From Variovorax sp. S12S4 (GTDB lineage: Bacteria; Pseudomonadota; Gammaproteobacteria; Burkholderiales; Burkholderiaceae_C), in assembly GCF_023195515.1 (NCBI RefSeq), contig NZ_JALPKR020000002.1:2581001-2645000 (forward strand): 64,000 bases of DNA, written 5' to 3'. Position numbers and translations under genes: made by a program. Each line of letters starts with the position of its first letter. Positions within the stretch are counted from its first letter, which is position 1. Under the pieces are notes generated by a model. The model was not told the origin of the DNA, did no database searches, and was given only the letters and a program-made list of their open reading frames with translations. Shown here one piece after another: positions 11,349-43,292 of the stretch.

Positions 11349-11938
11349 ACGCGCTCGCGGTAGGTCGCAGCGCTTGCCCTCTGCGGGTTGTGCCGAACGC
11401 GCAGCCCGAAAAGGTCGTCGAGCCCATGCGGAGCAACGACGCCCAGTGTTCCGTCGTCGTTGAGGTACACGCCAACGCACGTCGCGAACTCCGGCCACGT
11501 CGCAACGCCTTCTTCAAGCGAGGCAAGTGGCGCAACAACCTGGCCGAGGGCGTCGGCAAACCAGCGATGGACGCCGGCCTGGTTCGTGACTTCCCAGCAG
11601 AGGTTTGGCATGGCTGAGCGAAGCTGCTCTTCGAGATGGGCATCGTGCTCGGGACTCGCCTTGGCGTCGAAGTACACGACGTCCATGTCTTCGACGGGCG
11701 AGCGGTCGTCGAAGCCATGAAGGGTGTCCCAAACCAACGAGCGGATGGCGCCGGCACCGATGCACCAGGACCGGAGTTGAAGCGAGCGGACCGCATGCAG
11801 CGCGGCCATCAGCGGGTCTGATGCGGCCACCATCGCGGTGAGCCTGCGCTCGAGGTGCGCATGGGGTGCGTCAGTGACGAACGTGCGACTGCCAAAGCCG
11901 TGGGCGTCGGGCTTCGCTGCCGAATTTCCAATCAGCAT
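11294..11938 (-). CDS. Nucleotidyltransferase family protein (NTP_transf_6-like)
   Basis: The product is 214 aa. The stretch CIGAGAIRSLVWDTLHGF followed by EDMDVVYFD is the signature of the NTP_transf_6 (PF06042-type) nucleotidyltransferase family, whose substrates are mostly unknown. The C-terminal half (WPEFATCVGVYLNDDG, then GLDDLFGLRVRHNPQ) also fits that family. It overlaps the preceding small gene by 7 nt and the fdsR-like gene on the other strand by 55 nt. Confidence 0.85.
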   Translation of the reverse strand: MLIGNSAAKPDAHGFGSRTFVTDAPHAHLERRLTAMVAASDPLMAALHAVRSLQLRSWCIGAGAIRSLVWDTLHGFDDRSPVEDMDVVYFDAKASPEHDAHLEEQLRSAMPNLCWEVTNQAGVHRWFADALGQVVAPLASLEEGVATWPEFATCVGVYLNDDGTLGVVAPHGLDDLFGLRVRHNPQRASAATYRERVQAKRFAERWPRLSIEAA

Positions 11939-12273
11939 ACGAGCGGCCCCAGCTCGATAATGTCACCCTCAAAGAGGCAGAAGTCGAGGTCTTGCTTCAG
12001 GCAGATTTCCACACCTTGCCGATAAACATGGATGTCGACGAGGCAGCCTGCATCTGCGTCGTTCTCCTTGAACTTAAAGTACTTGGGCTCAGCAAGGTAA
12101 GGATCGAGGGGGTCGCCAGCGAATGGCGTAATCGTCACATTGAATCGAGCTTCATATGCGGCAATTGCCTGCCCGAGCGTTGCGACATCCAGTTTGTATG
12201 CCAGATCTTTGTGCGGCACTGGCGAACCAGTGAATGAGTAGCGGGAATTAGATGGGCCAAAGATCAACTGCAT
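11932..12273 (-). CDS. Hypothetical protein
   Basis: The product is 113 aa and I do not recognise it. It has no signal peptide or membrane segment and is acidic in its second half (KFKENDADAGCLVDIHVYRQ). It overlaps the nucleotidyltransferase gene by 7 nt, so the two are probably co-translated. The local GC content looks somewhat lower than that of the fds operon. Confidence 0.65.
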   Translation of the reverse strand: MQLIFGPSNSRYSFTGSPVPHKDLAYKLDVATLGQAIAAYEARFNVTITPFAGDPLDPYLAEPKYFKFKENDADAGCLVDIHVYRQGVEICLKQDLDFCLFEGDIIELGPLVC

Positions 12274-12298
12274 TGCGAAGAAGCTTGTCTAAGGCTGC

Positions 12299-12535
12299 TC
12301 ATGAGCCGAAAAAATGTTTGAACAGCCAGATAGCCGCCATTCCTATGGCCGCGATAACGGCTGCTCCTCCTGCTTCATTGAAGATCTCTTTCCACCACTT
12401 CGGTCGCTGAATCCGGACCTCGGCAGTGCGCTTTCTTGGGGCAGTCAATTGATATGAAGCGACCAAGTCGTGCCCACATCGAGCGCAGAAAGCTGCAGTC
12501 GGAATATTCTCACCGCCACAGTGCTTGCAGTACAT
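12299..12535 (-). CDS. Small zinc-ribbon membrane protein
   Basis: The product is 78 aa. The N-terminus MYCKHCGGENIPTAAFCARC has two CxxC pairs typical of a zinc ribbon. A hydrophobic stretch near the C-terminus (AAVIAAIGMAAIWLF) is a likely single membrane segment. A basic linker (PRKRTAEVRIQRPKWWKE) lies between. It starts 119 nt downstream of the DinB-like gene and ends 25 nt before the hypothetical gene that follows. Role unknown. Confidence 0.7.
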   Translation of the reverse strand: MYCKHCGGENIPTAAFCARCGHDLVASYQLTAPRKRTAEVRIQRPKWWKEIFNEAGGAAVIAAIGMAAIWLFKHFFGS

Positions 12536-12654
12536 GAATGAACTGTAGAGCAGATTGATCGCCGGACCTCGAAAGCCAAGAATCCCGAACTGTAAGTTGT
12601 TAAAAATTCCTCTTCACGGCATTCTTGAACTTCGTATCGCGCCGCGGTGGTTCC

Positions 12655-13155
12655 TCAAAGAACAGGCGGAACATCCCTCAAGAACACCGGCAAGTCCATC
12701 GTCGGGGGACGAACCGATGCCTGGTAAAGCATCTGCGCCACGTATCCGCGGTGATAGGTCTTGTGATTCACCACATGGAGCACCATGTCGCCGCAGGTCA
12801 TCGCGCCTGAGCCGCCGTCGACGAACTCGAAGTGCACCACTTCATCGTGCGCCGTGCCGGAGATCCGGTCGGCGTAGTCGATGTACCAGTCGTCGATGAG
12901 CGCCTGTGCATCGCGAAGCTCCCCAAGGCTTGGCATCACTTCCGTATTGCGCCAAGTGAAGCCATGGCGTTCTCCTTCGAGATGAGCCTTCCAGATCAGG
13001 TCGACCACATAGGCGTGATTCAGCGTCTTGACCATGTCGCCCAATGCGGATGCAGCTGCCTCGCTTTTGGGCAATTCGGCCAGCGCGCTGAAGAGGCGCG
13101 AGTTTGCCCAGGCCGTGTAGCGCGTGAGCATGCGGATGTTGCGGGTGTCGGTCAA
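12655..13155 (-). CDS. DinB-like family protein
   Basis: The product is 166 aa from a TTG at 13155, chosen because GGAGG lies 5 nt upstream and the start then avoids the LysR stop. An ATG 8 codons further in (13131) and one 27 codons earlier (13236) are alternatives. DinB-like proteins are four-helix metal-binding proteins. The helices and His ligands are visible in TRYTAWANSRLFSAL, TLNHAYVVDLIWKAH and HVVNHKTYHRGYVAQML. In many bacteria these act as thiol-dependent transferases or stay uncharacterised. Confidence 0.82.
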   Translation of the reverse strand: MTDTRNIRMLTRYTAWANSRLFSALAELPKSEAAASALGDMVKTLNHAYVVDLIWKAHLEGERHGFTWRNTEVMPSLGELRDAQALIDDWYIDYADRISGTAHDEVVHFEFVDGGSGAMTCGDMVLHVVNHKTYHRGYVAQMLYQASVRPPTMDLPVFLRDVPPVL

Positions 13156-13193
13156 AAATGCCTCCGTGAGCTGCCAATGATCGTCATCTCGTG

Positions 13194-14081
13194 CTATTGC
13201 TCCAGAAAGAGATCGGAGATGACCGATCTCAGCCACTTGTTGGAAGGGTCATGCTGGTACCGCTCGTGCCAATGTTGCTTGATGGCGAAGCCCGCCAGCT
13301 TGAAAGGAGGCGGAAAAACCTTCACGCTGGCAATTCGCAGCAAAGTCTCGGCCACGCGGGCAGGCACGGTGATCATCAACTCCGTCTGCGCAATCAGCGC
13401 GCCTATGCCCAGAAAATCCGGAAGGTGCAGGCTGACGTTTCTTTGTACGCCAAGCCGCGCGAGTTCGCGTTCGACGAGTTCGTTTCCTGCTCCTGTGGCT
13501 GACACCACCACGTGGTTCTCTCGCTTGAACATGCCTGGAGTAAGGCGAGACTGGATACGAGGGTGGTCTTTTCGCACGACGCATACGAAGCGCTGGTCGA
13601 AGAGCTTTTGCTGGTAGAAGCCTGCCTCCAGTTCCGGCATGAAGCCCACGGCCAAGTCTGCATCGCCCGATTCGAGCATCTTGGGTGTCTGAGCTGAAAT
13701 GTGGGTGATCTCGACGCGGATCGACGGCGCAACCGCATTCAGGCGGTTCATGAGGTCGGGCAGAAGTACAAGGTGGGTAATGCCGGTCATGCACACGCGA
13801 AAAGTGCGGTCGGCCTTTGCCGGATCGAAGATGGCCTGCTGCCGCGTGACGGCACGCAGCAGCTCCAGTGCCTGCCGGATCGGAGCCACCAACGAAGTGG
13901 CGTGCGGCGTCGGTTGCATGCCGTCGGACGTGCGAACGAAGAGCGGGTCGCCGAAGTGCCGCCGCAGCCGTGCCAAGGCGATGCTGATGGACGACTGCGG
14001 CATGCCGAGGTGATCGCCCGCGCGAGAGACGCTGCGGGTCTTGTAGACCTCGTCGAAGATGCTCAGCAGTTTCAGGTCCAT
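13194..14081 (-). CDS. LysR-family transcriptional regulator
   Basis: The product is 295 aa. The N-terminal winged helix (residues about 1-60) shows SVSRAGDHLGMPQSSISIAL. The remaining two lobes form the LysR substrate domain. It is divergent from the small secreted protein gene at 14155, and the 73-nt AT-rich gap between them probably holds its operator. Whether it controls that gene or the downstream DinB-like gene is unknown. Confidence 0.9.
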   Translation of the reverse strand: MDLKLLSIFDEVYKTRSVSRAGDHLGMPQSSISIALARLRRHFGDPLFVRTSDGMQPTPHATSLVAPIRQALELLRAVTRQQAIFDPAKADRTFRVCMTGITHLVLLPDLMNRLNAVAPSIRVEITHISAQTPKMLESGDADLAVGFMPELEAGFYQQKLFDQRFVCVVRKDHPRIQSRLTPGMFKRENHVVVSATGAGNELVERELARLGVQRNVSLHLPDFLGIGALIAQTELMITVPARVAETLLRIASVKVFPPPFKLAGFAIKQHWHERYQHDPSNKWLRSVISDLFLEQ

Positions 14082-14154
14082 TATTTAGATTCTTGATCAA
14101 ATGTATTGAGCGTATGTCATAGCTTAAATACTTTGGCAGACCTAGCATCGTTGA

Positions 14155-14457
14155 ATGACTCTGAAATTTCCGATGGTGGTTCTCGCCCTCTTGCCCCTCG
14201 CCCTACCCGCAGGAGTTTTGGCGAAGCCGAGGCAGGCTGACCCGCCAGTCGTCAGTGCCTTCTATCGTGATCCAGAGCACTGCGCTTACATGGCGGGGTT
14301 GCCGGAGAACGATTCACCAGAGTTTCTCAAGCGCTTCGAAACCGATGTCAAAGCCGCGGTAGAGGCCCTGCAGGTTCGGAATCCGTCGCTGAATCTGACG
14401 ACCGCCCTTTTCCATCTCAAAGCTGGGTGCGATCGGGCACTGGCAAGGGTCAGATAA
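14155..14457 (+). CDS. Small secreted protein of unknown function
   Basis: The product is 100 aa with a clear signal peptide (about residues 1-23, ending LPAGVLAKPR). The mature part has two cysteines (EHCAYM and KAGCDRAL) that could form a disulfide, and the segment AFYRDPEHCAYMAGLPE. I do not recognise the family. Its end overlaps the convergent acetyltransferase remnant by 8 nt. Confidence 0.65.
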   Translation: MTLKFPMVVLALLPLALPAGVLAKPRQADPPVVSAFYRDPEHCAYMAGLPENDSPEFLKRFETDVKAAVEALQVRNPSLNLTTALFHLKAGCDRALARVR

Positions 14458-14980
14458 AGCCGCTGCCGGGACCTTCTCTTTCACACCGCATAAGCAGCGC
14501 AGGCCCGTCAGGCGTCATGACTTCGCCAACGTCCTTGAAGCCGACTTTTCTGTAGCACCGTATGGCACGTGCGTTCTCGGGCGAGGGGTCTGTCTGCACT
14601 TTCGAAACCCTTGGGTCTTGAAAGAGCCGGTCGACGAAGGCCTTGATCATTGCGGTGCCCAGACCCTGGTTCAATCGCGCGGCGTCTGCCAGGAACTGGT
14701 CGATGCCTCTCGCGCCGGCATCGGTTTCGTCTTCCCACCACCCGTCTCCGGAGCCTTGCACCACATAGACCTGGATGAACCCGATCGGGTCATCGTCAAG
14801 GCTGGCGATGAATGCCCTAGTCGACGACCTGCCGTCGAGCGTCGGAAGGTACTCGTCCCTGATCTCTTCGAGCGTGCTGGGCTCGCTCCACCATTAAGCG
14901 ACGTGGGGCCGCCGAACCCATTCGTGGAGCATCGGAAAGTCGCGCTCTTCCAGTGGCCTGAATGAAAGTGTCGTGAACAC
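14450..14980 (-). pseudogene. AAC(6')-type GNAT acetyltransferase with one internal stop
   Basis: Read from a GTG at 14980 (AGGAG 8-9 nt upstream), the frame gives a full GNAT of about 176 codons: FRPLEERDFPMLHEW near the start, then WEDETDAGARGIDQFLAD, GLGTAMIKAFV and NARAIRCYRKVGFKDVG. This is the layout of aminoglycoside 6'-N-acetyltransferase-like proteins. A TAA at 14894-14896 interrupts it where family members usually have Glu in HVAEWW (here HVA-stop-WW), so a single G-to-T change would explain it. Only the 104-residue C-terminal part, from GTG 14764, stays open. The gene is therefore inactive, or the base is a sequencing error. Confidence 0.8.
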
Positions 14981-23855: not shown

Positions 23856-25058
23856 TCAGTGCCCTACCGGCACCGGGCCCGAAGCCCGCACCGGAATGCC
23901 GGCACGTCGGTCGAGTGCTCCGCTCCACTGCGTGAGCGCCAGCGACACCAGCACCACCAGCGCGCCAATCCACGGCGTGTGCATCAAGCCAAGGTGCGTC
24001 ACGATCAGTCCGCCCACCCACGCTGCGAGCGCAATGCCCAGGTTGAACGCCGCAATGTTCAGGCCCGAGGCCACGTCGACCGCCTGCGGCGTAAAGCGCT
24101 CGGCCTGCTTCACCACATACACCTGCAGCCCCGGCACGTTGCCGAAGGCCACCGCGCCCCACATCAGCACCGCCACCAGCGCCAGCCACTTGTGCGGCGC
24201 TGCAAAGTTGAACACCAGCAGCACCGCGGCCAACAGCGCAAAGATGATCTTCAGCGCCGGAATCGGCCCCATGCGGTCGGCCAGCCTGCCGCCCCAGATG
24301 TTGCCCACCGCCACCGACACACCGTACACCAGCATGACCCAGCCCACAGCGCCCGCGCTGAAGCCCGACACCTCCGTGAGGATGGGCGCCAGAAACGTGA
24401 ACGGAATGAACGAGCCGCCGTAGCCGATGGCCGTCTTGGCATACACCAGCAACAGCCGCGGCTCTGCCAGCACCTTGGCCTGCTGCGCCAGCGAGGCCGG
24501 TGGTGTGTGGCGGATGTTGCTGGGAACAAAAAACCAGCTGCCGATGAACGCGATAACCCCTAGCGCAGACACTGCCAGAAAAGTCTCGCGCCAGCCGAAG
24601 TGCTGCCCGATGAACGTGCCCAGCGGCACGCCCGTAACCAGCGCCACCGTGAGCCCGGTGAACATGATGGCAATGGCGCTCGCGGCCTTTTCCTTAGGCA
24701 CCAGGCCCGTGGCAATGGTCGAGCCAACCGAGAAGAACACCCCGTGCGCCAGCCCTGTGAGCACGCGGGCGGCAATCAGCGATTCGTAACTCGGCGCCTG
24801 CCACGCCAGCAAGTTGCCGAGCGTGAACAGCGTCATCAGCCCGAGCAGCAGCGCCTTGCGCGGCAGCTTGCCCGTGAGCGCGGTGAGCACCGGCGCGCCG
24901 ATGGCGACGCCCAGCGCATAAAGGCTGACCAGCAGGCCGGCGGAGGGAAGGCCGATGCCGAGATCAGCAGCGACAGTTGGGATGAGGCCAACGATGACGA
25001 ACTCGGTCGTCCCGATGGCGAAGGCGCTGAGGGTCAGCGCGAGTAGGGCGATTGGCAT
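23856..25058 (-). CDS. MFS transporter (AraJ/YdhP-like efflux)
   Basis: The product is 400 aa with about 12 hydrophobic segments and an N-terminus [20 protein letters not shown] typical of the DHA1 sugar-efflux/AraJ group. The family loop [13 protein letters not shown] is present. AGGAG lies 6 nt before the ATG. It is the first gene of a pair with the aldo/keto reductase. Substrate not inferable. Confidence 0.9.
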
Positions 25059-25320
25059 GAGGCACTCCTGAATGGGTTAGGAGGAGTGTCTTGGGATTAC
25101 CTTTGCGGATAAATGGGGGTTGGGGCAGAAGATAGTTGCTAGCAAGTCAATAGTCGACCGCACTGCAAGCGGTGTGGAGCATGACTTCGTAAGCACACAT
25201 CGGTCAGTGAGAGGAATGGCTTGCCTCCCCTAAGGACGAACATATCGCAAACCTAGTGGTGATTTGTCAACTCTCTTGTCATACTCCGTTCGGCATTTAA
25301 ATTCTCTTAGGGGGAGATGT

Positions 25321-26199
25321 ATGGCAACTGTAGTCACAGTCATGAATATGAAGGGTGGCGTCGGCAAAACAACCGTGGCAATGCATATTGCCGGGGCAAG
25401 TGCAGCTTATAAATTTGGGGCGACAACGCCGCGGCGTGTTCTTGTTATTGATTACGACCCGCAGTTCAATCTGTCACAAGCTCTCTTGCCCGCAAGGAAA
25501 TACTTCGCTCTTGAGGCCGAGCGGAAAACAGTGCTTTCGGTATTGACTGATGCGCAAGAGGAGCTCAATCCATATGAATTGGCGGTTCCTGGAAATGAAA
25601 GACCTCCAACGGTTACATCGCTAGCAGCCAGAGTACTCAGTTATGGATCGATCGGACACTTGGATATTGTTCCTTCGACACTGGATTTAATGTATGTAGC
25701 CCTAGGTGATCACGAGCACAGTGCGAAACCTATGGAGAATAGGTTCAAAAAATTTATTGCTGAATGTCGGACTTGCTATGATCTGATTTTAATCGATTGC
25801 CATCCAGCGGGTTCAATCTTTACAAAAACATCGCTGCGAAATTCTGATCATGTACTAATTCCGGTTTTGCCGCAAAAATATGCAGTGCGAGGGGTTGGGC
25901 TCATGGCTGCATTTATAGATGCAAAAAAACAAGGTGCGAGTGGCCCCAAACCTCATATTTTGTTTAATCGGGTGCCTCGAAAGGGAGTTTCTCGAGAAGA
26001 ACGAAGTATCCGCGCAGAGGCTAAGTTTTCCTCGCTTTGTCTTGCGCATACGTTAAAAAAATATAGTGCTTTTACCGAGCCGGAAAATGGTTCTGGATTT
26101 GTTTGGGAGAGCAGTAAGCCATATAGCACAGAGGCTTTTAATAATCTAACCGCAGTGACCAAGGAGTTTTTAATTCGTATAGGGGTGGCCAATCCATGA
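25321..26199 (+). CDS. ParA/MinD-type ATPase, first gene of an AT-rich three-gene cassette
   Basis: The product is 292 aa. The deviant Walker A motif is MNMKGGVGKTTVAMH, and Walker B-like residues are in LILIDCHPAGS. The start at 25321 is supported by GGGGGAG 4 nt upstream. ParA-type ATPases position plasmids, chromosomes or protein complexes; this one has no ParB gene beside it. Composition differs sharply from neighbours: 26041-26100 has 23 G/C of 60, against 42 of 60 at 24301-24360. Its TGA overlaps the next ATG (26196-26199), so it is coupled to the following gene. No plasmid replication gene is near, so a stand-alone role, perhaps in defence, is possible. Confidence 0.85.
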   Translation: MATVVTVMNMKGGVGKTTVAMHIAGASAAYKFGATTPRRVLVIDYDPQFNLSQALLPARKYFALEAERKTVLSVLTDAQEELNPYELAVPGNERPPTVTSLAARVLSYGSIGHLDIVPSTLDLMYVALGDHEHSAKPMENRFKKFIAECRTCYDLILIDCHPAGSIFTKTSLRNSDHVLIPVLPQKYAVRGVGLMAAFIDAKKQGASGPKPHILFNRVPRKGVSREERSIRAEAKFSSLCLAHTLKKYSAFTEPENGSGFVWESSKPYSTEAFNNLTAVTKEFLIRIGVANP

Positions 26200-26662
26200 A
26201 TGAGAGAAAAAAGCGTTGCTGCGCACAATGTGTGTTGCAATCTTTGGTAATTTCAGCGATGCTGAAATTAAAAAAATAGCAAGAGAACTGAAATCGGATT
26301 TTTCCTTCACAGAAGACCTGCATTCGATCTTAATGCGCACCCTTGTCGCTTGGGACGAGGGGCATGGTGAAGCTAAGCACTCTCCAATGCCGATGCATAG
26401 CGAGATGTCAGTTGTCGATGAGTTGTATCGAGGAGTGCAGCAAAGAAAGATCTCCAGATTGAGGCTGATCGACATCCTTCATAACCTCGGCTTCTTTTTC
26501 GACGACGCTGCGATGGACGAAAATCTAACAATACGTCAAATATTGGAGTCATTTTTCTTGGATTCCACTGTGCGCCAAATGGAAGAGTTTAAGGCAAGAA
26601 TTGGAATTTCTTCTGACCCCTATCTAAAAGGTATTGTCGATTCGAAGAGAGGAAAAAAATGA
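26196..26662 (+). CDS. Unknown protein, second gene of the ParA cassette (likely one-base deletion)
   Basis: An open frame of 148 codons runs from a TTG at 26216 (or ATG 26228) to 26662. The expected ATG at 26196 overlaps the ParA stop by ATGA but is in another frame. Adding one A to the six-A run at 26207-26212 joins them as MNERKKALLRTMCVAIFGNF, giving about 155 aa. The protein is predicted helical and acidic, with FSDAEIKKIARELKSDFSF and IDILHNLGFFFDDAA. I do not recognise the family. The A run suggests a sequencing indel or a real lesion. Its TGA overlaps the next ATG (26659-26662). Confidence 0.6.
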
Positions 26663-27365
26663 CAGTTCTGCAGCTTAAAAAAGCGCTAAGTTCTGTCGAT
26701 TGGAATGCCGGTGTTCTGAATTTTTCTAACGATGCGAATACCATGGAAAAATTCGATAAAGGGTGCGCGCGCATCGCCGAATGGGTGAGAGGTCTAGCGT
26801 CCGCAGATGCCGGAAATCCTGCACTTGCGTTCCTATGGTCGGCTCAGACAGCAGCTAACACCGCAGTGGTCTCGTCTTCGCTTTCTCTTTACCACGCCGC
26901 AGCAGCCTCAATACGAAACGTCGTGGAGAACGGGTTGTACTACTCGTATTTTCGATCTCATCCCGCGGAATTGGCGACTTTGGTGAGGGATAAGTCGTTT
27001 TATATTTCGAAGGCCGATGTAATTGCGTTTTATAGGTTGCACATTCCTGAGTTCAAGTCAATACAAGAAAAACTTGGTCTCCAGAGTCGACTTGAAAACT
27101 GGTATAGCGATATATCTGCAATTGTTCACGGGCAATTGCCAGGCGTATGGGTGCATCATGTGGCAATCAAGGACATAAATCCAAATCAGGCTACTCAGGG
27201 GAGGTGCTGAAGCAATTTCAGACTGCCGAGCAGATTTTGCACGATATCTTGCTGGCAACAGTAGCGCAAGAAATGTGGGATAAATTCACTGCTTCTACGA
27301 AGCGGGCGCTATTGAGCGGAATGAGTGGAGATTTGAAAACAATCTTGAAATTAGACAGGGCATAA
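26659..27365 (+). CDS. Unknown helical protein, third gene of the ParA cassette (frameshifted)
   Basis: The frame from ATG 26659 stops at 27210. A second frame then continues to 27365 with VLKQFQTAEQILHDILLATV. Adding one G to the GGGG run at 27198-27201 joins them into about 235 aa. It is all-helical in look, with IRNVVENGLYYSYFR and, later, RLENWYSDISAIVHG. An Arg and a His in such helices recall HEPN-like proteins, which include RNases of defence systems, but the match is by eye and weak. Composition matches the ParA gene, so the three genes moved together. Confidence 0.6.
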
Positions 27366-27499
27366 TGAGAAAGCGCTGCAAGGTTAAAATTCTATTTCAA
27401 AAATAGGAATATTGGCGATATTTTATTTCTTTTTGTGAATTGAGTTTTTTATTTGAGGCGTGACAAGTTCGGGGTTGATGTCGGACTGTCTTGGATATA

Positions 27500-27750
27500 C
27501 TTCGGAGTCGCGCAAAAAAGCGCGATCGGGTTTGGAAGCCCGTTGAACCCTCTGCGACGAAAGCCGCAGTTACCGCACGTGGTCTGCGGCCTTTTCGTTC
27601 GTGCGCCATTTATGGCGGCTCGGACGGGAGGGCGCGAGCCCTGCCGGCTTTCGCAAGAGGGTTCCCGGTCTTCCAACCCGTTCGAGCTGCCGCCACCGTT
27701 TGGAAGCGGGTGCGTCGGCTGTAGCAAACAGAACCCGACTGGAGGCCTCT
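27500..27750 (+). promoter_or_regulatory. Structured RNA leader upstream of a small gene
   Basis: This fills the 385-nt gap after the island. A -10-like TATACT is at 27496-27501. Four folds follow. TCGCGC-A6-GCGCGA is a perfect 6-bp hairpin (27508-27525). ACGAAAGCCGCAG pairs with CTGCGGCCTTTTCGT (27557-27598, one bulge), a terminator-like stem with T's in its 3' arm. TGGCGGC (27613-27619) pairs with GCCGCCA (27689-27695), enclosing AGGGC-GCGA-GCCCT with a GNRA-type loop. The decamer GTTTGGAAGC occurs at 27530-27539 and 27698-27707. The layout fits a cis-regulatory leader or attenuator. 27366-27499 is AT-rich with nothing else visible. Confidence 0.6.
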
Positions 27751-28077
27751 ATGGCTGAATCTGAAGCTGCCCTAGGGCGATCTAGCGCCCCTTTCACCGC
27801 TCCTGAGCCAACATCATCCAGCCTCGACGACTTCGCTCTGCAAGCTTGCGACGACGCCCAGGCCCTAAACCACGTAGTGCGCGCCTACACGGCGCTCGAA
27901 AAGCTCATCGACACCAGCGCCCTGAGTGACTGCGAAGTACTCACCCCAAGCCGTACCGAACTGAGCGCCTTGCTGCGCCTGCTCAACGACGCCCTGCTGG
28001 TCCGCATCAACACCGTCAACGCCGCCACTGGCGTGGTTCACGAAGCGCTTCAACGGAACACTACCGGCGCCATGTAG
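27751..28077 (+). CDS. Hypothetical protein behind the structured leader
   Basis: The product is 108 aa from ATG 27751 (GGAGG 5 nt upstream). It is helical, with a Ser/Pro-rich N-terminal 25 residues and then FALQACDDAQALNHVVRAYT and LSALLRLLNDALLVRIN. No signal peptide, membrane segment or catalytic motif. The family is not recognised. High GC and normal codon use place it with the chromosome rather than with the ParA island. Expression probably depends on the leader RNA. Confidence 0.7.
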   Translation: MAESEAALGRSSAPFTAPEPTSSSLDDFALQACDDAQALNHVVRAYTALEKLIDTSALSDCEVLTPSRTELSALLRLLNDALLVRINTVNAATGVVHEALQRNTTGAM

Positions 28078-33967: not shown

Positions 33968-34113
33968 GGCGCATTCTGGCGCAACCGACGGCAATCGCTG
34001 CGTAGTCGCCCCGCGGGCAAACGCCCGAAATGAACCGCATTGCCCCCTTGTTTGCCCACTGCCGCGACGAGGCCCCCAGGAAAATCGAACCTCCATTCGT
34101 TCCCGAAAATTCC

Positions 34114-35667
34114 ATGAGAGACCTGAAGATCGGCACCCGTCTAGGGATGGGCTTCACGCTACTGCTGCTGCTCCTGCTTGCCATCGGCGCGATCGGCCTG
34201 CAACAAATGGCCAGGCTCGCCGATGAGATCCGGGTCGTCAACGAGGTGGCCGGCGGCAAGCTTTATGCGCTCAACCGAATTCGATTTGCAATCGGCACAC
34301 GGGCGATCGCGGCGCGCAATCTGGCGCTGGTGAGCGATGCGCAGCTGCAGAAGAAGGACCTGGAACTCGTGAAGTCCTCCCAGTCCGAGATCGACGAGGG
34401 CATGAAGACCTTGGGCGCCATATTGAAAGACCCCCACTCGGCCGCGGTGGAAGAAGAGCAGCGCCTGCTCGCGCAGCTGCAGGCGCTCGAGGCACAGTAC
34501 CTGGTGATCGCGGGCAAGGTCGTGTCGCTCGCGACCGGCGGCAAGACCGAGGACGCCGTGCGCGCGCTCACGCAGGAATGCATGCCGCTCCTGACGCAGG
34601 TGATCGCTCATGTCGGCACCTTCGAGAAGGTGCTCAAGGAAGGCGCGGATCGCACCGCGGCCGAGGCCGCGCAGGCCTACCAGACCGCCCGCTGGCTGAT
34701 GCTGCTGCTCAGTGGTCTCTCTCTGGCGCTGGGCATCACCGCTGCGCTGTGGCTCACGCGTTCGATCACGCGTCCGCTCAACGAGGCGGTGCGCGTGGCG
34801 CAGTCGGTCGCCGCCGGCAACCTTGCCACCCAGGTGATGCCCGCCGGCCGCGACGAAGCCGGCCTGTTGATGCGGGCGTTGCACGAGATGAACACCAGCC
34901 TCGTCCGGCTGGTCAGCGAGGTGCACCGCGGCGTGGCGAACATCGGCGAAGCCTCGGCCCAGATCTCGGCCGGCAACCGCGACCTGTCGTCGCGCACCGA
35001 GCACCAGGCGAGTTCGCTCGAGGAGACGGCGGCGTCTATGGAAGAGCTCACCTCCACCGTCAAGCAGAACGCCGCGAACGCGCGGCAGGCCAACCAGCTC
35101 GCGGTCTCCGCATCGTCGGTGGCGGCCGAGGGCGGAACGATCGTCGGGCAGGTGATCGACACCATGGCGGCCATCAATGGCTCGTCGAAGAAGATCGTCG
35201 ACATCATCGGCGTGATCGACGGCATCGCCTTCCAGACCAACATCCTCGCGCTGAACGCAGCGGTCGAGGCGGCACGGGCCGGCGAGCAGGGCCGCGGCTT
35301 TGCCGTGGTGGCCTCGGAGGTGCGCAGCCTGGCGCAGCGCTCGGCCGCGGCGGCCAAGGAGATCAAGGATTTGATCGGCGATTCGGTAGGCCGCGTCGAA
35401 GCCGGCAGCGAACTGGTGGACCAGGCCGGCCGCACCATGCGCGAGATCGTTGCCAGCGTGCAGCGCGTCACCGAGATCATGGGCGAGATCACGGTCGCGA
35501 GCCGGGAGCAGACCGACGGCATCGAGCAAGTGAACCAGGCCATCGCACAGATCGACCAGGGCACGCAGCAGAATGCCGCGCTGGTGCAGCAGGCGGGCAC
35601 TGCCGCCGGATCGCTGCAGGCGCAGGCCGGCAGCCTCTCGCAGGCGGTCAGCGCGTTCCGGCTCTGA
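34114..35667 (+). CDS. Methyl-accepting chemotaxis protein
   Basis: The product is 517 aa. TM1 is about residues 12-32, the periplasmic part looks like a four-helix-bundle sensor, and TM2 is about residues 193-215 (MLLLSGLSLALGITAALWLT). A HAMP domain follows (ITRPLNEAVRVAQSVAAGNL). The signalling hairpin is conserved (DGIAFQTNILALNAAVEAAR, about residue 370 onward). The C-terminus ends SQAVSAFRL, so no CheR-binding pentapeptide is present. No chemotaxis genes are adjacent. Ligand unknown. Confidence 0.95.
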   Translation: MRDLKIGTRLGMGFTLLLLLLLAIGAIGLQQMARLADEIRVVNEVAGGKLYALNRIRFAIGTRAIAARNLALVSDAQLQKKDLELVKSSQSEIDEGMKTLGAILKDPHSAAVEEEQRLLAQLQALEAQYLVIAGKVVSLATGGKTEDAVRALTQECMPLLTQVIAHVGTFEKVLKEGADRTAAEAAQAYQTARWLMLLLSGLSLALGITAALWLTRSITRPLNEAVRVAQSVAAGNLATQVMPAGRDEAGLLMRALHEMNTSLVRLVSEVHRGVANIGEASAQISAGNRDLSSRTEHQASSLEETAASMEELTSTVKQNAANARQANQLAVSASSVAAEGGTIVGQVIDTMAAINGSSKKIVDIIGVIDGIAFQTNILALNAAVEAARAGEQGRGFAVVASEVRSLAQRSAAAAKEIKDLIGDSVGRVEAGSELVDQAGRTMREIVASVQRVTEIMGEITVASREQTDGIEQVNQAIAQIDQGTQQNAALVQQAGTAAGSLQAQAGSLSQAVSAFRL

Positions 35668-35879
35668 CGCGACGCGGCTTTGCAACGCGCCCGTCGCCGC
35701 CACGTAGGAACACCCGCACCCGTCATGGGGGTGACAGAAGATCTCGCTTCTCGAACGGCTGGAGTGGGCCCCTTTGCGCCGATCGGCCGTGAGGCTACAG
35801 TCGGCCAAGATCGGACATCTGGACTTAAGTCAGAATTCGCTCCAACTGGTGATCACCACAGCAGAGAAGGCCGAACGTC

Positions 35880-36227
35880 ATGAGCGATTCCGTTGTCTTG
35901 TATCGCCCGACCGGGCCAGAGGAACTCGCCCTTGTTCGGGAGAGTGGATTTACCAAGTGGCCGCCCCGCCTGCCGGAGCAACCCATTTTTTACCCGGTGA
36001 CCAACGAGCAGTACGCCGTTGACATTGCCAGTGACTGGAACGTCAAAGCCAGTGGGTATGGCTGTGTCACACGGTTCCACGTCCGAAAGGAGTTCATGGA
36101 CCGTTACGAGATTCAGAAGGTCGGAGGCGTGAACCACACTGAATGGTGGATTCCCGCGGAAGAACTCGAGGAACTCAACGAAAACATCGTCGGACTGATC
36201 GAGGTAATTCGAGAATTCAAAGCCTGA
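35880..36227 (+). CDS. Small protein of the ADP-ribosylation/crystallin J1-labelled family
   Basis: The product is 115 aa, opening with SVVLYRPTGPEELALVRESG and containing FTKWPPRLPEQPIFYPVTNE. Proteins like this are often named after ADP-ribosylation/crystallin J1, but at this size they lack the ADP-ribosylglycohydrolase core, so the name says little. No signal peptide. The first of three small genes in a row with short gaps. Confidence 0.7.
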   Translation: MSDSVVLYRPTGPEELALVRESGFTKWPPRLPEQPIFYPVTNEQYAVDIASDWNVKASGYGCVTRFHVRKEFMDRYEIQKVGGVNHTEWWIPAEELEELNENIVGLIEVIREFKA

Positions 36228-36292
36228 TGTGCAGGCAGGTCTCGGCCACAACCGGACCTTCGCTACGGTCGCCGAATGAATTCTTGCCATCC

Positions 36293-36790
36293 ATGAACAT
36301 CCAGGAAGCGCGCCCCTCCGATGCCCCAATAGTTGCCTCTATCCTGCAAGAGGCAGCCGAGTGGCTCGCTGGCGGCGGTAGGCCACTTTGGTCGGCAGCG
36401 GAAATTGACCGCGAACGCGTTCAGAAAGATGTGAACGACGGCCTTTTCCACATTGCCCGTCAGGACGGGCAACTGATTGGCGTCATGAAGTTCGAGTTGG
36501 AGGACGCCTATTTTTGGCCGGAGGTTCTGCCGGGCACCTCGGCATTCGTCCACAAGCTCGCCGTGCGCCGGGCGTGGGCGAAGAAGGGCGTCTCGACGGC
36601 ACTGTTGTCATATGCTCGAAGTCGGGCCCAGCAGCTTGGACGTGCTCACCTTCGCCTAGATTGCGTCGCCGATCGCCAAGGGCTCCGGAACCTTTATGAA
36701 GGCTTCGGCTTCGCCCTACACAGCGTCGTTCAGATAGGGGCCTTCTCGTATGCGCGGTATGAACTACCGACTGCAACCACTAGGGACTAA
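36293..36790 (+). CDS. GNAT family N-acetyltransferase
   Basis: The product is 165 aa. The acetyl-CoA-binding core shows HKLAVRRAWAKKGVSTALLS and the late RNLYEGFGFAL. The first strand is IQEARPSDAPIVASILQEA. Substrate unknown. Confidence 0.88.
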   Translation: MNIQEARPSDAPIVASILQEAAEWLAGGGRPLWSAAEIDRERVQKDVNDGLFHIARQDGQLIGVMKFELEDAYFWPEVLPGTSAFVHKLAVRRAWAKKGVSTALLSYARSRAQQLGRAHLRLDCVADRQGLRNLYEGFGFALHSVVQIGAFSYARYELPTATTRD

Positions 36791-36859
36791 AGAGGGTTCG
36801 ACCGGCTACAGCCGCCCAATAGCCATCGTTCAGCCACTGGTCTAAGCCATGGAAGCCAC

Positions 36860-37111
36860 ATGCGATTGTCCGATGTTCAAGCGCTAGAGCACCTCGCGGC
36901 GCGAATCACCTCCGGAGAACTGGTTGGCGAGGACGCCTTGGCAGCGCTACGGCCGTATTCAGAAGCAGAGGCTGCAGCCGTCAATGTCATTCACCTTCTT
37001 TATCACTTCGTCTCTGATGCAGACATACGAGCGCTTGAGCCTGAGTACGAGCGTAAGCAGACGCAGCGCCTGAAAGCGATTCTGGCCTCTTTGCAGCATG
37101 ACGCCACGTGA
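36860..37111 (+). CDS. Hypothetical protein
   Basis: The product is 83 aa, helical: LSDVQALEHLAARITSGELV, then VNVIHLLYHFVSDADIRALE. No recognised family. It is 69 nt after the GNAT gene. 37112-37273 holds nothing clear. Confidence 0.55.
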   Translation: MRLSDVQALEHLAARITSGELVGEDALAALRPYSEAEAAAVNVIHLLYHFVSDADIRALEPEYERKQTQRLKAILASLQHDAT

Positions 37112-37273
37112 GCCAGTCGTGCTCCGGTGCATAGTCCCTAAGGGCAAAATGCGGCCAGAACCAGCCGGTCGCGATCGTCAGCTTTTTCTGCGGGCTGTCT
37201 GACGCCCAATCACCAGATGCGATTCGCGCGAGCGGAGTGGCAACAACACGAGCCTTGCAAGCGGCAGCACTGG

Positions 37274-38203
37274 TCATGCCGTTGCAGCGCCCACTCCTCG
37301 CTTGGCGTAACGTCCCGGCGGAATGCCAACGTGCCGTGTGAATGCAACGCCGAACGTGCTTACCGAGCTGTAGCCGACGCGCTCCGCGATTTCCGAGATC
37401 GCGATTTCGCGTTGCCGAAGCAGCTGCTTCGCGAGCGCCATGCGCCAAGCCAGCAAGTATTCCATCGGTGCCATGCCAACAGCCCCGCTGAAGCGTTCGA
37501 AGAATGCCGAGCGCGACATCGCGGCCTCGCGCGCCAGCTGTGCAACCGTCCATGGATCTGATGGCCGCTGGTGCATCAGCCGAAGCGCCAGCGCCAGCCT
37601 GGTATCGGACAGGCCCCGCACGAGACTGGAGGATGTCGATGAGCTAGCTGTCGAGCGCAGCGCTTCGATCAGGAGCACCTCCAGCAGTCGCGCCATCACG
37701 ATCTCGCGCGCGGGCCGATCGTTGCGGGATTCGTCGCCCACCAACTGCACCAGCGTCGACAGGCGGTGCTCGCCCTGGATATGCACCCAGTTCGGCAGCA
37801 ACGACACCAGAATCGCAGCGTCCGGCGATCCGAAAATGCAATTGCCCACGAGCATGCGGGTGTCGACGGGTCCATCCGGATCGCCGACCCGCGCGCCGCC
37901 GGGCATTGCGACGATCGCCGTATCAACGGCTTCGTCGTCGCCCGGCGGCTGCCGGTCGAGGCTCGACGTTGCAAAGGAACGCGCAGAGGGGAGCAGCGCG
38001 AAGTCGCCTTCATTTAGCGTGATGGTGTCGCTGTGCGTTGCGCTGTCGATGCGCAGGAGGCAACTTCCCTGCAACAAGACGAAGTAGAAGGGGCGGCCGG
38101 TCTCGGTACGGCGCACCGCCCACGGCGCTGACGCGACCACGAGCTTGGAGAACGGCGCGCCCGGCTGCAGCAACGACACGACTTCGGCCAGGGGATCGGT
38201 CAT
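37274..38203 (-). CDS. AraC-family regulator with cupin sensor domain
   Basis: The product is 309 aa. The N-terminal half is a Cupin_6-type domain (GRPFYFVLLQGSCLLRID, then NEGDFALLPSARS). The C-terminal half carries the two HTH motifs (WTVAQLAREAAMSRSAFFER and ISEIAERVGYSSVSTFGVAF). It is divergent from the SDR gene at 38297 across a 93-nt gap, which makes that gene its probable target. Confidence 0.9.
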   Translation of the reverse strand: MTDPLAEVVSLLQPGAPFSKLVVASAPWAVRRTETGRPFYFVLLQGSCLLRIDSATHSDTITLNEGDFALLPSARSFATSSLDRQPPGDDEAVDTAIVAMPGGARVGDPDGPVDTRMLVGNCIFGSPDAAILVSLLPNWVHIQGEHRLSTLVQLVGDESRNDRPAREIVMARLLEVLLIEALRSTASSSTSSSLVRGLSDTRLALALRLMHQRPSDPWTVAQLAREAAMSRSAFFERFSGAVGMAPMEYLLAWRMALAKQLLRQREIAISEIAERVGYSSVSTFGVAFTRHVGIPPGRYAKRGVGAATA

Positions 38204-38296
38204 GTGGACTCTCTCGACAAAAACTTGGACCTACAAATGTAGCCAGTCCGGCTTTGGACTTCTATCGTGACGACATCACCTCAAAGGAGTTTGTTG

Positions 38297-39047
38297 ATGT
38301 CTCTCACTTCCACTGTCCTCATCACTGGGTGCTCGTCCGGCTTTGGCCTCGAGACCGCCCACCTCTTCCTCGAAAGAGGCTGGCGCGTCATCGCGACGAT
38401 GCGCACGCCCCGCGAAGACGCATTGCCGTCCTCCGATCGGCTACGCGTGCTCGCGCTCGATGTGACCGATGCCGAAAGCGTCCGCCATTGCGTGGAGCAG
38501 GCCGGGTCAATCGATGCGTTGGTCAACAACGCCGGCATCGGCCTGCTGGCCCCGTTGGAAGGCATCGCGATGACTAGCGTGCGCGAGGTCTTCGAGACCA
38601 ATGTCCTCGGCACGATTGCGATGACCCGGGCCGTGGTGCCACAACTGCGCGAGCGGCGAGCGGGCGTTGTCGTCAACGTAACATCGAGCGTGACGCTCAA
38701 GCCGCTGCCGCTGTTGTCGGTGTATACCGGGAGCAAGGCGGCGGTGAACGCATTTACCGAATCGCTCGACTTGGAGCTGGCGTCGTTCGGCGCGCGCGCG
38801 GCTGGTACTGCCAGGTCGAGCGCCGGGCACGAGCTTTGGCGACAACGCCCGCCGCCTCGTAAGCGGCAGCGCGCATGCGGCCTATGCCGACTTCACGCAG
38901 CGTGTGTTCGCCGCTGTGCGCGACACCGATTCGCCGGTCACGCACTCGAAGGATGTGGCTGAGGCCGTGTGGCGGGCGGTGACCGACCCTGCCGCGCCGA
39001 TGCGGATTCCGGCAGGTGTGGACGCGATCGCACTGTTAGACGCATGA
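38297..39047 (+). pseudogene. Short-chain dehydrogenase/reductase, frameshifted
   Basis: AAGGAG lies 7 nt before ATG 38297. Frame one encodes a normal SDR start: VLITGCSSGFGLETAHLFLE (cofactor loop), ALVNNAGIG and the catalytic Y-x3-K in SVYTGSKAAVNAF. After ASFGARA the frame becomes nonsense. Another frame continues as RLVLPGRAPGTSFGDNARRL and ends at DAIALLDA (stop 39045-39047). The switch falls in the (CG) tract at 38790-38800, where a net change of one base (gain of one or loss of two) restores a protein of about 249 aa. Either a pseudogene or an assembly error. Confidence 0.85.
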
Positions 39048-39251
39048 GCGTCGAGGACGCTATATCGAAAGGACCGTGCGCAGGACGAATGGCCGCTTCC
39101 CGCCGCGGACTTCGACGTTCTGAACGTCGCTTCAGGGCCCCAAGCCGACCTTCCATTTGCTCCAAAGCGGCCGTCCATTCAAAGAGCCGTAAGCGCGCGA
39201 CAACAGTGCGGTGCTCGCCTGCCAACTCGGGTCAGCGGTGCTACTCACCCC

Positions 39252-39845
39252 TCAACGCAGCGCTAGCTCAAGAAATTCCAGGCGGTCCTGCCCCCAGAAT
39301 AGTTCGCCATCGAGCACATAGGAGGGCGAGCCGAAGACGCCCGCCGCGACGGCGGCATCGGTGTTGCGTACATAGGCTGCCTGGACGGCAGCCGTCTCGG
39401 CCAAACGCAGCAGCGTGTCGGCGTCCAGGCCGTGTAAAAGAAGGATCGCCCGCAGCGTCGATGCGTCGGAAATGTCCTGTTCATCGCACCATTCGGCCGC
39501 CAGAATTGCCTTGTAGAGCGGGGCCACATGCACTCCCGCCGCGTCGGCTGCGATGACCACGCGTGACGCAAGGCCGGCATCCGGGCACATGAACCGGGGC
39601 GTCGGATTGACATGGATGCCGAGGCGCTTGCACCATCGCTTCAACTCGGCAATGCGATAGGCCTGCCGCTCGGGCGCACGTTTCGGCAAGATCACGCCCC
39701 CGGTGCGCGCGTAAACGGCGGGAAGATCGACAGGCAGGTAGCGGATCGAGACGCCGTGCCGCGCCGCCAGGTCCTCGAGCCGGTCCGCACCCAGGTAGGC
39801 CCAGTCCGAGTTCATCCAGAAGTAATAGTCGATCGTTCGCGGCAT
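39252..39845 (-). CDS. DsbA-family / 2-hydroxychromene-2-carboxylate isomerase-like protein
   Basis: The product is 197 aa. The thioredoxin-fold start is TIDYYFWMNSDWAYLGADRL and the end AAGVFGSPSYVLDGELFWGQ is the usual HCCA isomerase/kappa-GST tail. These are glutathione-dependent isomerases in aromatic degradation. It starts 2 nt after the MFS stop, so it is in the same operon as the transporter and aldolase. Confidence 0.85.
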   Translation of the reverse strand: MPRTIDYYFWMNSDWAYLGADRLEDLAARHGVSIRYLPVDLPAVYARTGGVILPKRAPERQAYRIAELKRWCKRLGIHVNPTPRFMCPDAGLASRVVIAADAAGVHVAPLYKAILAAEWCDEQDISDASTLRAILLLHGLDADTLLRLAETAAVQAAYVRNTDAAVAAGVFGSPSYVLDGELFWGQDRLEFLELALR

Positions 39846-39847
39846 CT

Positions 39848-41191
39848 TCAGGGCGCCTTCGCCAGGAGCGGGGATGCAGCAAGCACCTTGAAGCGCTGGT
39901 CGCCGTGCATCTTCCACGCGCTGAAGCAAGCCACGGCCCCGAGTGCGCTCAGGTACCAGATCACGTACTGCGGATCTCCATTTCCCTTGCTCAGCAGCCA
40001 GGTCGCGACGATCGGCGCGAGGCCGCCGCCGATGGCGCCGGATACCTGCACCGCCAGCGAAATGCCGGTGTAGCGCACTTCCGCGGGAAATTGGCTGGAG
40101 AACAGGCTGCCTTCAGGCCCGTAGAGCGAGGCATACACCAGACCCACGGCAAGGATCAGCGCGGCGTTGATCCAGAAGCCCTCGCGTGTATGAAGGAACG
40201 AGAAGAACAGCGGCGCACATGCGAGGATGCCCACGGTGCCGATCATGAACACCCATTTCTGGCCGATCCTGTCGCCCAGCCATCCGAAGAAGGGCATCGT
40301 GAGCAACGCGGCGGTGGCGCCCCAGATGATTGCATCGAGCATGGTGCTGCGCGGAATGCCGAGAGTGCCTGTGGAATAGGCAAGCGCGAATGTCACCGTG
40401 GTGTAGAACCAGGTCACCTCGGCCAGGCGGGCACCCACGACGACCAGCGTTTCGCGCGGGTATTTCTTCAGCACCTCGACCACGGGCACCCGCACTTTCT
40501 TGCCCACCTGCTCGATGTCCTGGAAGTCGGGCGACTCGGCCACCTTCGCGCGGATGAACCAACCCACGAGCAGCAGCACGACGCTGGCCAGGAACGGAAT
40601 GCGCCAGCCCCAGGACAGCATGTCCGCTTCCGGCAGCTTGGCAACCGCGCCCATCGCCAGGGAAGACAGGATGAGGCCGGGTGCCACGCCGACTTGCGGC
40701 AGGCTTCCGAAGAATCCCTTCTTGCCTTCGGGCGCGTGTTCGACCGCCATCAGCACCGCACCGCCCCATTCGCCGCCCACCGCCACGCCCTGCAGGAAGC
40801 GCATGCACACCAGCAGCACTGCGCCCCAGTAGCCAATCTGCTCGTAGGACGGGATCAGGCCGATCAGGATCGTGGGCACGCCCATGAGCATCAGGGTGAT
40901 GAGCAGCATCGACTTGCGTCCGACCTTGTCGCCGAAGTGCCCGAACACGATTCCGCCGAGCGGCCGCGCGAAGAAACCGACGGAATAGGTCGCAAAGGCC
41001 GCCATGGTGCCGACGATCGGATCGAAGGCCGGAAAGAAGATCTTGTTGAAGATCAATGCGGCGGCCGTTCCGTAGAGGAAGAAGTCGTACCACTCGATGG
41101 TGGTCCCCATCATGCTTGCGAGACCGGCCGTCACATAGCGACGCTTGGCGTCGGTTTTCTCGCTTGCACCGCTGTCAGTGTGTGTGTTCAT
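39848..41191 (-). CDS. MFS transporter, metabolite:proton symporter (MHS) type
   Basis: The product is 447 aa with about 12 helices. The stretch ASMMGTTIEWYDFFLYGTAA is the MHS family signature seen in shikimate, citrate and proline/betaine symporters. GHFGDKVGRKSMLL is the cytoplasmic loop motif. It probably imports the substrate of this cluster, an organic or aromatic acid. Confidence 0.92.
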   Translation of the reverse strand: MNTHTDSGASEKTDAKRRYVTAGLASMMGTTIEWYDFFLYGTAAALIFNKIFFPAFDPIVGTMAAFATYSVGFFARPLGGIVFGHFGDKVGRKSMLLITLMLMGVPTILIGLIPSYEQIGYWGAVLLVCMRFLQGVAVGGEWGGAVLMAVEHAPEGKKGFFGSLPQVGVAPGLILSSLAMGAVAKLPEADMLSWGWRIPFLASVVLLLVGWFIRAKVAESPDFQDIEQVGKKVRVPVVEVLKKYPRETLVVVGARLAEVTWFYTTVTFALAYSTGTLGIPRSTMLDAIIWGATAALLTMPFFGWLGDRIGQKWVFMIGTVGILACAPLFFSFLHTREGFWINAALILAVGLVYASLYGPEGSLFSSQFPAEVRYTGISLAVQVSGAIGGGLAPIVATWLLSKGNGDPQYVIWYLSALGAVACFSAWKMHGDQRFKVLAASPLLAKAP

Positions 41192-41227
41192 GGTGTCACC
41201 AGGTAGTGTTGCGAATGCGTGTGGGAT

Positions 41228-42013
41228 TCAGGAGGCTGCATGGCCTGTGCGCAGTGCCGTGGTCTGGCGACACCAGTAGTTGAACGTCGCGTTGACGATC
41301 GACGGCTTCAGCAGATAGTCGTGCGCCTCTCGCGCCAGCGCGTCGTCAACGGGCGTGAGCACCCCGAAGGCAGCCTGCGCCCGAAGCTGCATACGGGCAG
41401 CACGCTCCAGGTAGACGGCAAGGTAGGTAGCCTCTTCGATGGTGTGGCCGGCCGTCAGGTAGCCGTGATGAGCGAGCACTATTGCCCGCTTGCTGCCGAG
41501 CGCTTCGGAGATGATCACGCCCTCCTGGTCGGCAATGGGCACACCCGGCCACTCGGCAAGGAACGCACAGTCTTCGTGAAGCGGAGTCATGTCCATCTGC
41601 GAGATGACGAGCGGCTGACGCGCCGCCGCCAACGCCGACGCCCAGGGCGAATGGGTGTGGATGATCGACTGCACGTCGGGGCGGGCGCGGTACACCCAGA
41701 GGTGGAATCTGGTCGCCGGATTGGCCATGCCCGTGCCGCTCAAGGTGTTCAGGTCCTGGTCGACTTCGATGAAGTCGCTTGGCGTGGCCTCGTCGAAACC
41801 GAGGCCGAAACGCAGGGTCCAGTAGGCGCCTGGACGCTCCGAGCGGGCGCTGATCTGGCCGGCAAGGCCGGCCTCCTGTCCCGTCATCGCAAGGATCCGG
41901 CAGGCAAGGGCCAGCGTCTCCCACATGTCGCGCGGTGTGTCCTTCAGGTGTTGCGCCATCTCGCGCGTCGCGCGCTCGTCAAAATACTCCTTGGTTCGCA
42001 GGTCGTCTTTCAT
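41228..42013 (-). CDS. Class II aldolase/adducin family protein
   Basis: The product is 261 aa. The metal site of the family is visible: HTHSPWASALAA (HxH) and LAHHGYLTAG (second His group). The N-terminal RILAMTGQEAGLAGQIS block (GxxGxiS-like) also fits. Members cleave or decarboxylate hydroxy acids or fuculose phosphate. It is first in the aldolase-MFS-isomerase operon and downstream of the LysR gene. Confidence 0.9.
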   Translation of the reverse strand: MKDDLRTKEYFDERATREMAQHLKDTPRDMWETLALACRILAMTGQEAGLAGQISARSERPGAYWTLRFGLGFDEATPSDFIEVDQDLNTLSGTGMANPATRFHLWVYRARPDVQSIIHTHSPWASALAAARQPLVISQMDMTPLHEDCAFLAEWPGVPIADQEGVIISEALGSKRAIVLAHHGYLTAGHTIEEATYLAVYLERAARMQLRAQAAFGVLTPVDDALAREAHDYLLKPSIVNATFNYWCRQTTALRTGHAAS

Positions 42014-42144
42014 GCATGCCGTCCGTGGTTTGGGTTTGCGGCTGCATGAGCACCCCACGCACGTCCGCTGCCGTGGGAAGTATCGAGACAGCGGCCTTCG
42101 CGAGCCATGCAGCAGACCGCATAGCACCTATGCGGCGGCGGGCC

Positions 42145-43023: not shown

Positions 43024-43292
43024 GTGGCCTTTGCATCTGGAACGGAAAGCACCCACTGGAGCGAGCGCGCCCGTATTGGCGCAATGCAAGGATCGGGCCG
43101 AGCAGATCTGCCTGCGAGAGCAGCCCAGGCGTCGGGATTCCCCTGATGCAATGAGCAATGCGAAGCGACGCCCTTAACCATCGGTTAAGACCGGCTAAAC
43201 AAGACGCGAATTGTCGGCCTGCGCGCGAATTGTGAGGATGCGAAGCGCTGACACCAGCGTCGGTCCGCACAAAAAAAGAGACAGGAGACAGC

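Follow-up and report, generated by a model that had tools for sequence, protein, structure and literature searches.

The 64,000-nucleotide stretch of Variovorax sp. S12S4 analysed here (the window) belongs to contig 2 of a two-contig genome of 5.97 Mb and carries, at positions 25321-27365, an AT-rich cassette of three genes for a ParA-type ATPase, a small helical protein and a HEPN-like protein. With moderate confidence, we propose that this trio is a horizontally moving conflict module of the defence type, most likely directed against phages, with the HEPN-like protein as its effector. A first-pass annotation of the same DNA had suggested a mobile defence or stability module, a proposal now supported by the conservation of the trio, its scattered AT-rich loci and its position in a defence-rich site.

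The trio is a real unit, and more than a chance arrangement, since every other locus that we found has these genes in the same order. The genomes of 84,980 species yielded 18 loci in a pattern scan, and viral contigs yielded another two; the 20 distinct loci counted here are the window, the 18 genome loci and one viral contig. L021, whose open reading frames (ORFs) are those of L015, was left out, and L024 and L025, whose contigs match those of L012 and L017 in length, were not counted as new loci. L021 and L008, the latter near-identical to L007, were also excluded from the protein 2 and ParA alignments (A2 and A3, respectively). Gene calls in the relatives are simple scripted ORF picks. The neighbourhood survey recommended by the first-pass annotation gave the same answer at all 20 loci: ParA gene, gene 2 and gene 3 in identical order, adjacent and on one strand. 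The named hosts are Janthinobacterium, Caulobacter, Afipia, Methylosinus, Aquabacter, Ancylobacter, Bradyrhizobium, Tardiphaga, Rhizobium (two), Allorhizobium, Phenylobacterium, Methylovorus, Stenotrophomonas and Thiomargarita, along with one metagenome-assembled genome each of Rhizobiales, Xanthobacteraceae and Desulfobacterales.

The trio is also rare, being present in one of 299 sampled genomes of the family (the window's own) and in three of 398 in a phylum sample that includes it. Separate profiles for protein 3 (E 1e-3) and ParA (E 1e-25) recovered the same three phylum genomes and the same two viral contigs; thus, in the genomes and viral contigs covered, no member of this ParA clade was found without gene 3. 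Pairwise identity averages 62% for ParA, 48% for protein 3 and 26% for protein 2; the distance matrices are correlated (0.75 for ParA and protein 3, 0.79 for ParA and protein 2, 0.66 for proteins 2 and 3), with none of 2,000 permutations reaching such values. The guanine-plus-cytosine (GC) content of the cassette lies more than 0.02 below that of its flank in 18 of the 19 other loci (the exception is L009), with a mean difference of 0.14; with the window counted, 19 of 20 loci have a cassette clearly richer in AT than the flanking DNA. On the 44.7-kb viral contig, a 371-residue ORF (L020:5040-6155) lies about 450 bp upstream of the trio; to judge from its sequence, it may encode an integrase.

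In the window, the cassette has a GC content of 0.455 against 0.650 for the remainder, and all 1,152 overlapping windows of the same length taken elsewhere lie above it (minimum 0.567). The base counts on which the AT-richness had originally been claimed are exact (23 of 60 G/C at 26041-26100 and 42 of 60 at 24301-24360), and so are the two reported ATGA overlaps, at 26196-26199 between genes 1 and 2 and at 26659-26662 between genes 2 and 3. Blastn comparison with five related genomes placed the left end of homology at 25138-25140 in all five. On the right side, homology restarts at 27494 in two of them, at 27824 in two and at 28149 in one; both genomes restarting at 27824 also have a short match of 31 bases ahead of that point. 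Two close relatives share the sequence up to 25139, continue for 225-228 bp with mostly other sequence, and rejoin it from 27824 onward. The coordinates are collected in the table.

Table. Features of the cassette and its surroundings, in window positions.
Feature	Position	Strand	Basis and remarks
AT-rich inserted segment	25140..27493	.	GC 0.452; in relatives the left breakpoint is sharp; the right one abuts the C4 RNA element
Gene 1, ParA/Soj-type ATPase	25321..26199	+	292 amino acids, intact; ATG at 25321 to TGA at 26199; Pfam AAA_31, 5.9e-29
Gene 2, small two-part helical protein	26196..26662	+	ORF list and alignment A2; 143-167 amino acids in aligned relatives
Gene 3, HEPN-like protein	26659..27365	+	Pieces 26659-27210 and, in another frame, within 27147-27365; broken in the last third
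MFS-transporter-like gene	23856..25058	-	ORF, conserved in the genus; left-hand hotspot anchor, outside the system
C4 antisense RNA	27608-27697, within element 27495..27697	+	Rfam RF01695, above gathering score; right-hand hotspot anchor, outside the system
c4-a1b1 match	27495-27546	+	Rfam, below gathering score; upstream of C4
isrK-like match	27507-27596	+	Rfam, below gathering score; upstream of C4
Small gene downstream of C4 RNA	27751..28077	+	ORF; outside the system

The insertion site lies between the C4 RNA and a gene that we take to encode an MFS transporter. Long matches of at least 87% identity to this left-hand gene defined 35 loci in the genus. Three of these sites are empty (225-245 bp), 29 hold an AT-rich insert (relatives L068, L069, L071, L073-L079, L081-L098 and L100), and three lack a recognisable right-hand anchor (L072, L080 and L099). 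The inserts span 1.15-5.7 kb, at a GC content of 0.42-0.54. Between them, 63 ORFs taken from the inserts matched 427 models of PADLOC and 41 families of Pfam at 1e-5; the matches listed (25 of the 41 families) include AAA_15, reverse transcriptase, HEPN_Swt1, Mrr_cat, NERD, SLATT_5, nSTAND3, DUF3732 and PRTase-CE, next to general families such as helix-turn-helix and 5'-nucleotidase. When one chosen protein was scanned with PADLOC from each of 28 inserts (L095, which resembles L071, was left out), 20 inserts gave a match to a known or candidate defence model at 1e-6; for two inserts a second protein was scanned, and both matched too. The models matched were RmrA, LmuB, PtuA, PD-Lambda-5 A and B, PD-T4-10_B, RT, RT_UG17, helicase, methyltransferases, AriA/OLD-like ATPases and several PDC families, the last being candidates only. 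The scanned protein had no PADLOC match in the remaining eight (L069, L073, L075, L084, L085, L087, L092 and L093), which may contain unknown systems. Since such varied systems share one site, we consider it likely to be a defence hotspot, occupied by the trio in this genome. The small gene downstream of the C4 RNA, or the C4 stretch itself, was matched in 30 of the 35 loci. Many genomes of the genus carry DNA similar to the stretch with this phage-type antisense RNA at several sites; in the window, the element precedes a small chromosomal gene.

Three points weigh against the defence reading. The PADLOC match rate at the hotspot lacks a matched control, and the AAA and methyltransferase models are broad. 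The surroundings of the other trio loci are mixed: among 129 flanking ORFs, SspB, SspC, PtuA, BrxC and MTase_II were each matched once at 1e-10, and the Pfam families among the matches listed (25 of 116) are largely general. Finally, genes 2 and 3 are frame-broken in this copy, with two breaks in about 1.2 kb.

The breaks bear on whether this copy still works. Gene 1 is open throughout and genes 2 and 3 are not, as the first-pass annotation had noted in allowing one base in each of two homopolymers; gene 2 is broken near its 5' end and open from 26216 (148 amino acids). For comparison, 34 window ORFs matched the close relative G753: 29 were continuous over more than 90% of their length, three were cut at alignment edges and two changed frame. 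Because the density of breaks in the cassette exceeds that in these ORFs, decay is a likelier cause than assembly error. A firmer claim, real decay deduced from an apparent clustering of frame-changing gaps, was withdrawn on account of the two other ORFs that also change frame. The family could thus be real elsewhere while this copy is a decaying insertion with no present function, as the two broken frames and the continuity of 29 of the 34 compared ORFs would suggest; we hold this to be quite improbable, given that ParA is intact, that the start of gene 2 may lie beyond the break, and that the frame changes in two of 34 other ORFs make assembly error possible. Those two ORFs change frame at about 56570-56670 and 61315-61355, and either genome may be at fault. 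The window contains further stretches without a long alignment to G753 (11855-12651, 13155-14472 and 33984-43168), the first two within or beside a dip in GC content at 12-15 kb.

Turning to the proposed effector, we consider that protein 3, which lacks the canonical Rx4-6H motif, most likely adopts a HEPN fold, because HEPN-type structures lead the fold comparison and 20 of 33 family members show weak similarity to DUF5677 (PF18928). The search with its first piece found 36 proteins among 5.8 billion, the window's own included; they are mostly 230-240 residues long (about 235), and none has a precomputed Pfam domain. On the family profile of 235 positions, the two window pieces correspond to residues 1-188 and 179-235, with one stop inside the first match. 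In a structural second look with the model of a relative, ranks 1-4 were all HEPN-type structures, in keeping with the HEPN-like character that had been suggested for the last protein. The DUF5677 similarity was found at E up to 0.5 (best 0.00071) and is absent for the first member of the family and for the window piece; among the 11 Pfam families matched by any of the 33 members at E up to 0.5, none bears a HEPN name. As to the motif, H157 is present in 33 of 33 members and an arginine at position 151 in only nine; the invariant residues are R86, H101, E104, H128 and H157. HEPN families that lack the arginine and keep the histidine, such as Parep1/8 (PDB 2q00), are described in the available sections of PMC3710099.

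The identification of gene 1 as a ParA-type ATPase is borne out by its Pfam match and its motifs: the deviant Walker A sequence MNMKGGVGKTT is present in all 19 ParA sequences of alignment A3, in which IDYDPQ and IDCHP are also invariant. Its product matches partition families, and the nearest solved structures are Soj and plasmid ParA. The 64-kb window contains no ParB_N domain, as had been claimed, and each of the genome's five matches lies more than 0.8 Mb away. Because the ParB genes of the genome lie elsewhere, the best match adjoining another ParA, the cassette ParA is an extra one.

The relation to Soj and plasmid ParA raises the possibility that the trio serves partition or the positioning of a cargo, protein 2 acting as centromere-binding protein or adaptor and protein 3 as the cargo of ParA. 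This would fit the fully conserved Walker motifs, the partition-family matches and the basic start of protein 2 (residues 1-16 include three to five K/R in the 18 aligned proteins that come from other loci). We nevertheless regard it as very improbable. The score of gene 1 with the ParA_partition model is 87.6, against a cut-off of 180. At the window locus, 25060-25330 and 27360-27500 contain only chance-like short repeats, with no iterons upstream. No ParB, ribbon-helix-helix or helix-turn-helix family of Pfam, NCBIfam or PHROGs was matched by the open part of protein 2 in the window. Moreover, the first-pass annotation had asked whether the trio occurs only on plasmids, and a relative of protein 3 (P0002) had no match at 1e-5 in 72,556 plasmid and 50,697 phage records. 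Protein 2 might conceivably still bind a centromere as a protein of a new kind.

The family profile of protein 2 finds 28 proteins, and the protein matched none of the families searched. The model of an Afipia relative has a predicted local distance difference test score of 85, and the C-terminal domain of protein 2 weakly resembles death-fold CARD domains. One 236-residue protein (P0044) begins with an AAA_15-like segment followed by the whole of protein 2; it is probably a chimera or a deletion junction.

Returning to the proposed conflict module, its defence role is something we infer. The module would most likely act like an abortive-infection or toxin-antitoxin system, because of its anatomy (a regulatory ATPase, a small partner and a HEPN-like effector), its scattered spread and its place in the hotspot. 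From its fold, protein 3 would be the effector, probably acting on RNA through a non-canonical active site around R86, H101, E104, H128 and H157. ParA may serve as a nucleotide-driven switch, either restraining the effector or assembling it, with protein 2 as a putative adaptor between the two. ParB tails stimulate the ATPase activity of ParA, and the basic N-terminus of protein 2 perhaps does the same. Infection would then change the nucleotide state or DNA binding of ParA and release the effector.

The same anatomy could instead belong to a selfish addiction module, with a HEPN-like toxin and ParA (together with protein 2) as the antitoxin, kept because its loss is harmful and conferring no benefit against phages. 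Its compact, overlapping genes, its sporadic spread and the intactness of ParA beside broken genes 2 and 3 all fit. Antitoxins are usually the most variable component, whereas ParA shows the highest conservation within the trio; the site, furthermore, is shared with many anti-phage inserts. Even though addiction has been predicted for a related HEPN-ParA dyad (PMC3710099, available sections), we judge it unlikely for the trio.

A bolder form of the defence reading, which we regard as doubtful, would make the trio the first ParA-driven defence system: a DNA-patterned ParA would sense either an invading replicon or that its own patterning has been lost, and the adaptor would assemble or free a HEPN-like effector whose active site would be new. 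ParA-type ATPases are known to move plasmids, chromosomes and cell-division factors; a ParA-HEPN-like module at a defence hotspot would, if true, extend them to immunity or programmed dormancy. The hotspot is in itself a further source of candidate systems.

Neither the literature search nor the PADLOC scan returned such a trio, and on this basis we call the probable defence module undescribed. PADLOC 2.0.0 (5027 models; systems to 2023) did not match it: ParA reached only PDC-M28B at 0.0023, and the parts of proteins 2 and 3 that are open had no match at E up to 1. This agrees with the first-pass annotation, which could match the cassette to no described system. The trio is not described in the available sections of PMC3710099, PMC10853773, PMC13092281, PMC7159879, PMC8195603, PMC12111858, PMC2701414 and PMC5379612. 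In a PMC-centred search, with most subscription papers and non-PMC preprints outside its scope, a HEPN gene paired with a ParA gene appeared only in PMC3710099, as far as the accessible text of the sources goes.

That pair is the closest known relative in outline. In the sections available, Anantharaman et al. 2013 (PMC3710099) predict that a dyad of a HEPN protein of the MAE_18760 family and ParA/Soj is a toxin-antitoxin system, with HEPN as the toxin and the SIMIBI ATPase as the antitoxin, and propose that this ParA acts by nucleotide-dependent change or phosphorylation. The trio likewise encodes a HEPN-like protein with a ParA/Soj-like SIMIBI ATPase. However, it has three genes in 20 of 20 loci, gene 2 separating ParA from gene 3, and its DUF5677-like protein lacks the Rx4-6H motif that the same sections mark as conserved in MAE_18760. 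Because of this extra gene and the different, non-canonical HEPN-like protein, we do not file the trio as an MAE_18760 dyad. Flanks of about 1.5 kb around PF18737 and PF18735 loci contained no ParA motif, neither model being certain to represent MAE_18760. As a small portable cassette, the trio would make the 2013 HEPN-ParA prediction testable.

With ParABS (Soj/ParA), the trio shares an intact deviant Walker A motif and its nearest solved relatives; it differs in having no nearby ParB, no centromere found in the window, a location on a 5.9-Mb contig and a HEPN-like third gene. ABC-three-component (ABC-3C) systems are laid out as ATPase, middle component and effector, and the trio resembles them, by analogy only, in placing such components in one operon, whereas its ATPase is ParA-type and no sequence relation to them emerged, no search aimed at one having been made. 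One ORF at the hotspot matches the MC3 component of ABC-3C. Lastly, like the HEPN toxins of abortive infection and PrrC/RloC (PMC3710099, available sections), the trio would have a HEPN-type effector restrained by a partner protein or domain; unlike them, it combines a ParA-type ATPase, in place of an ABC ATPase or restriction enzyme, with separate genes and non-canonical residues.
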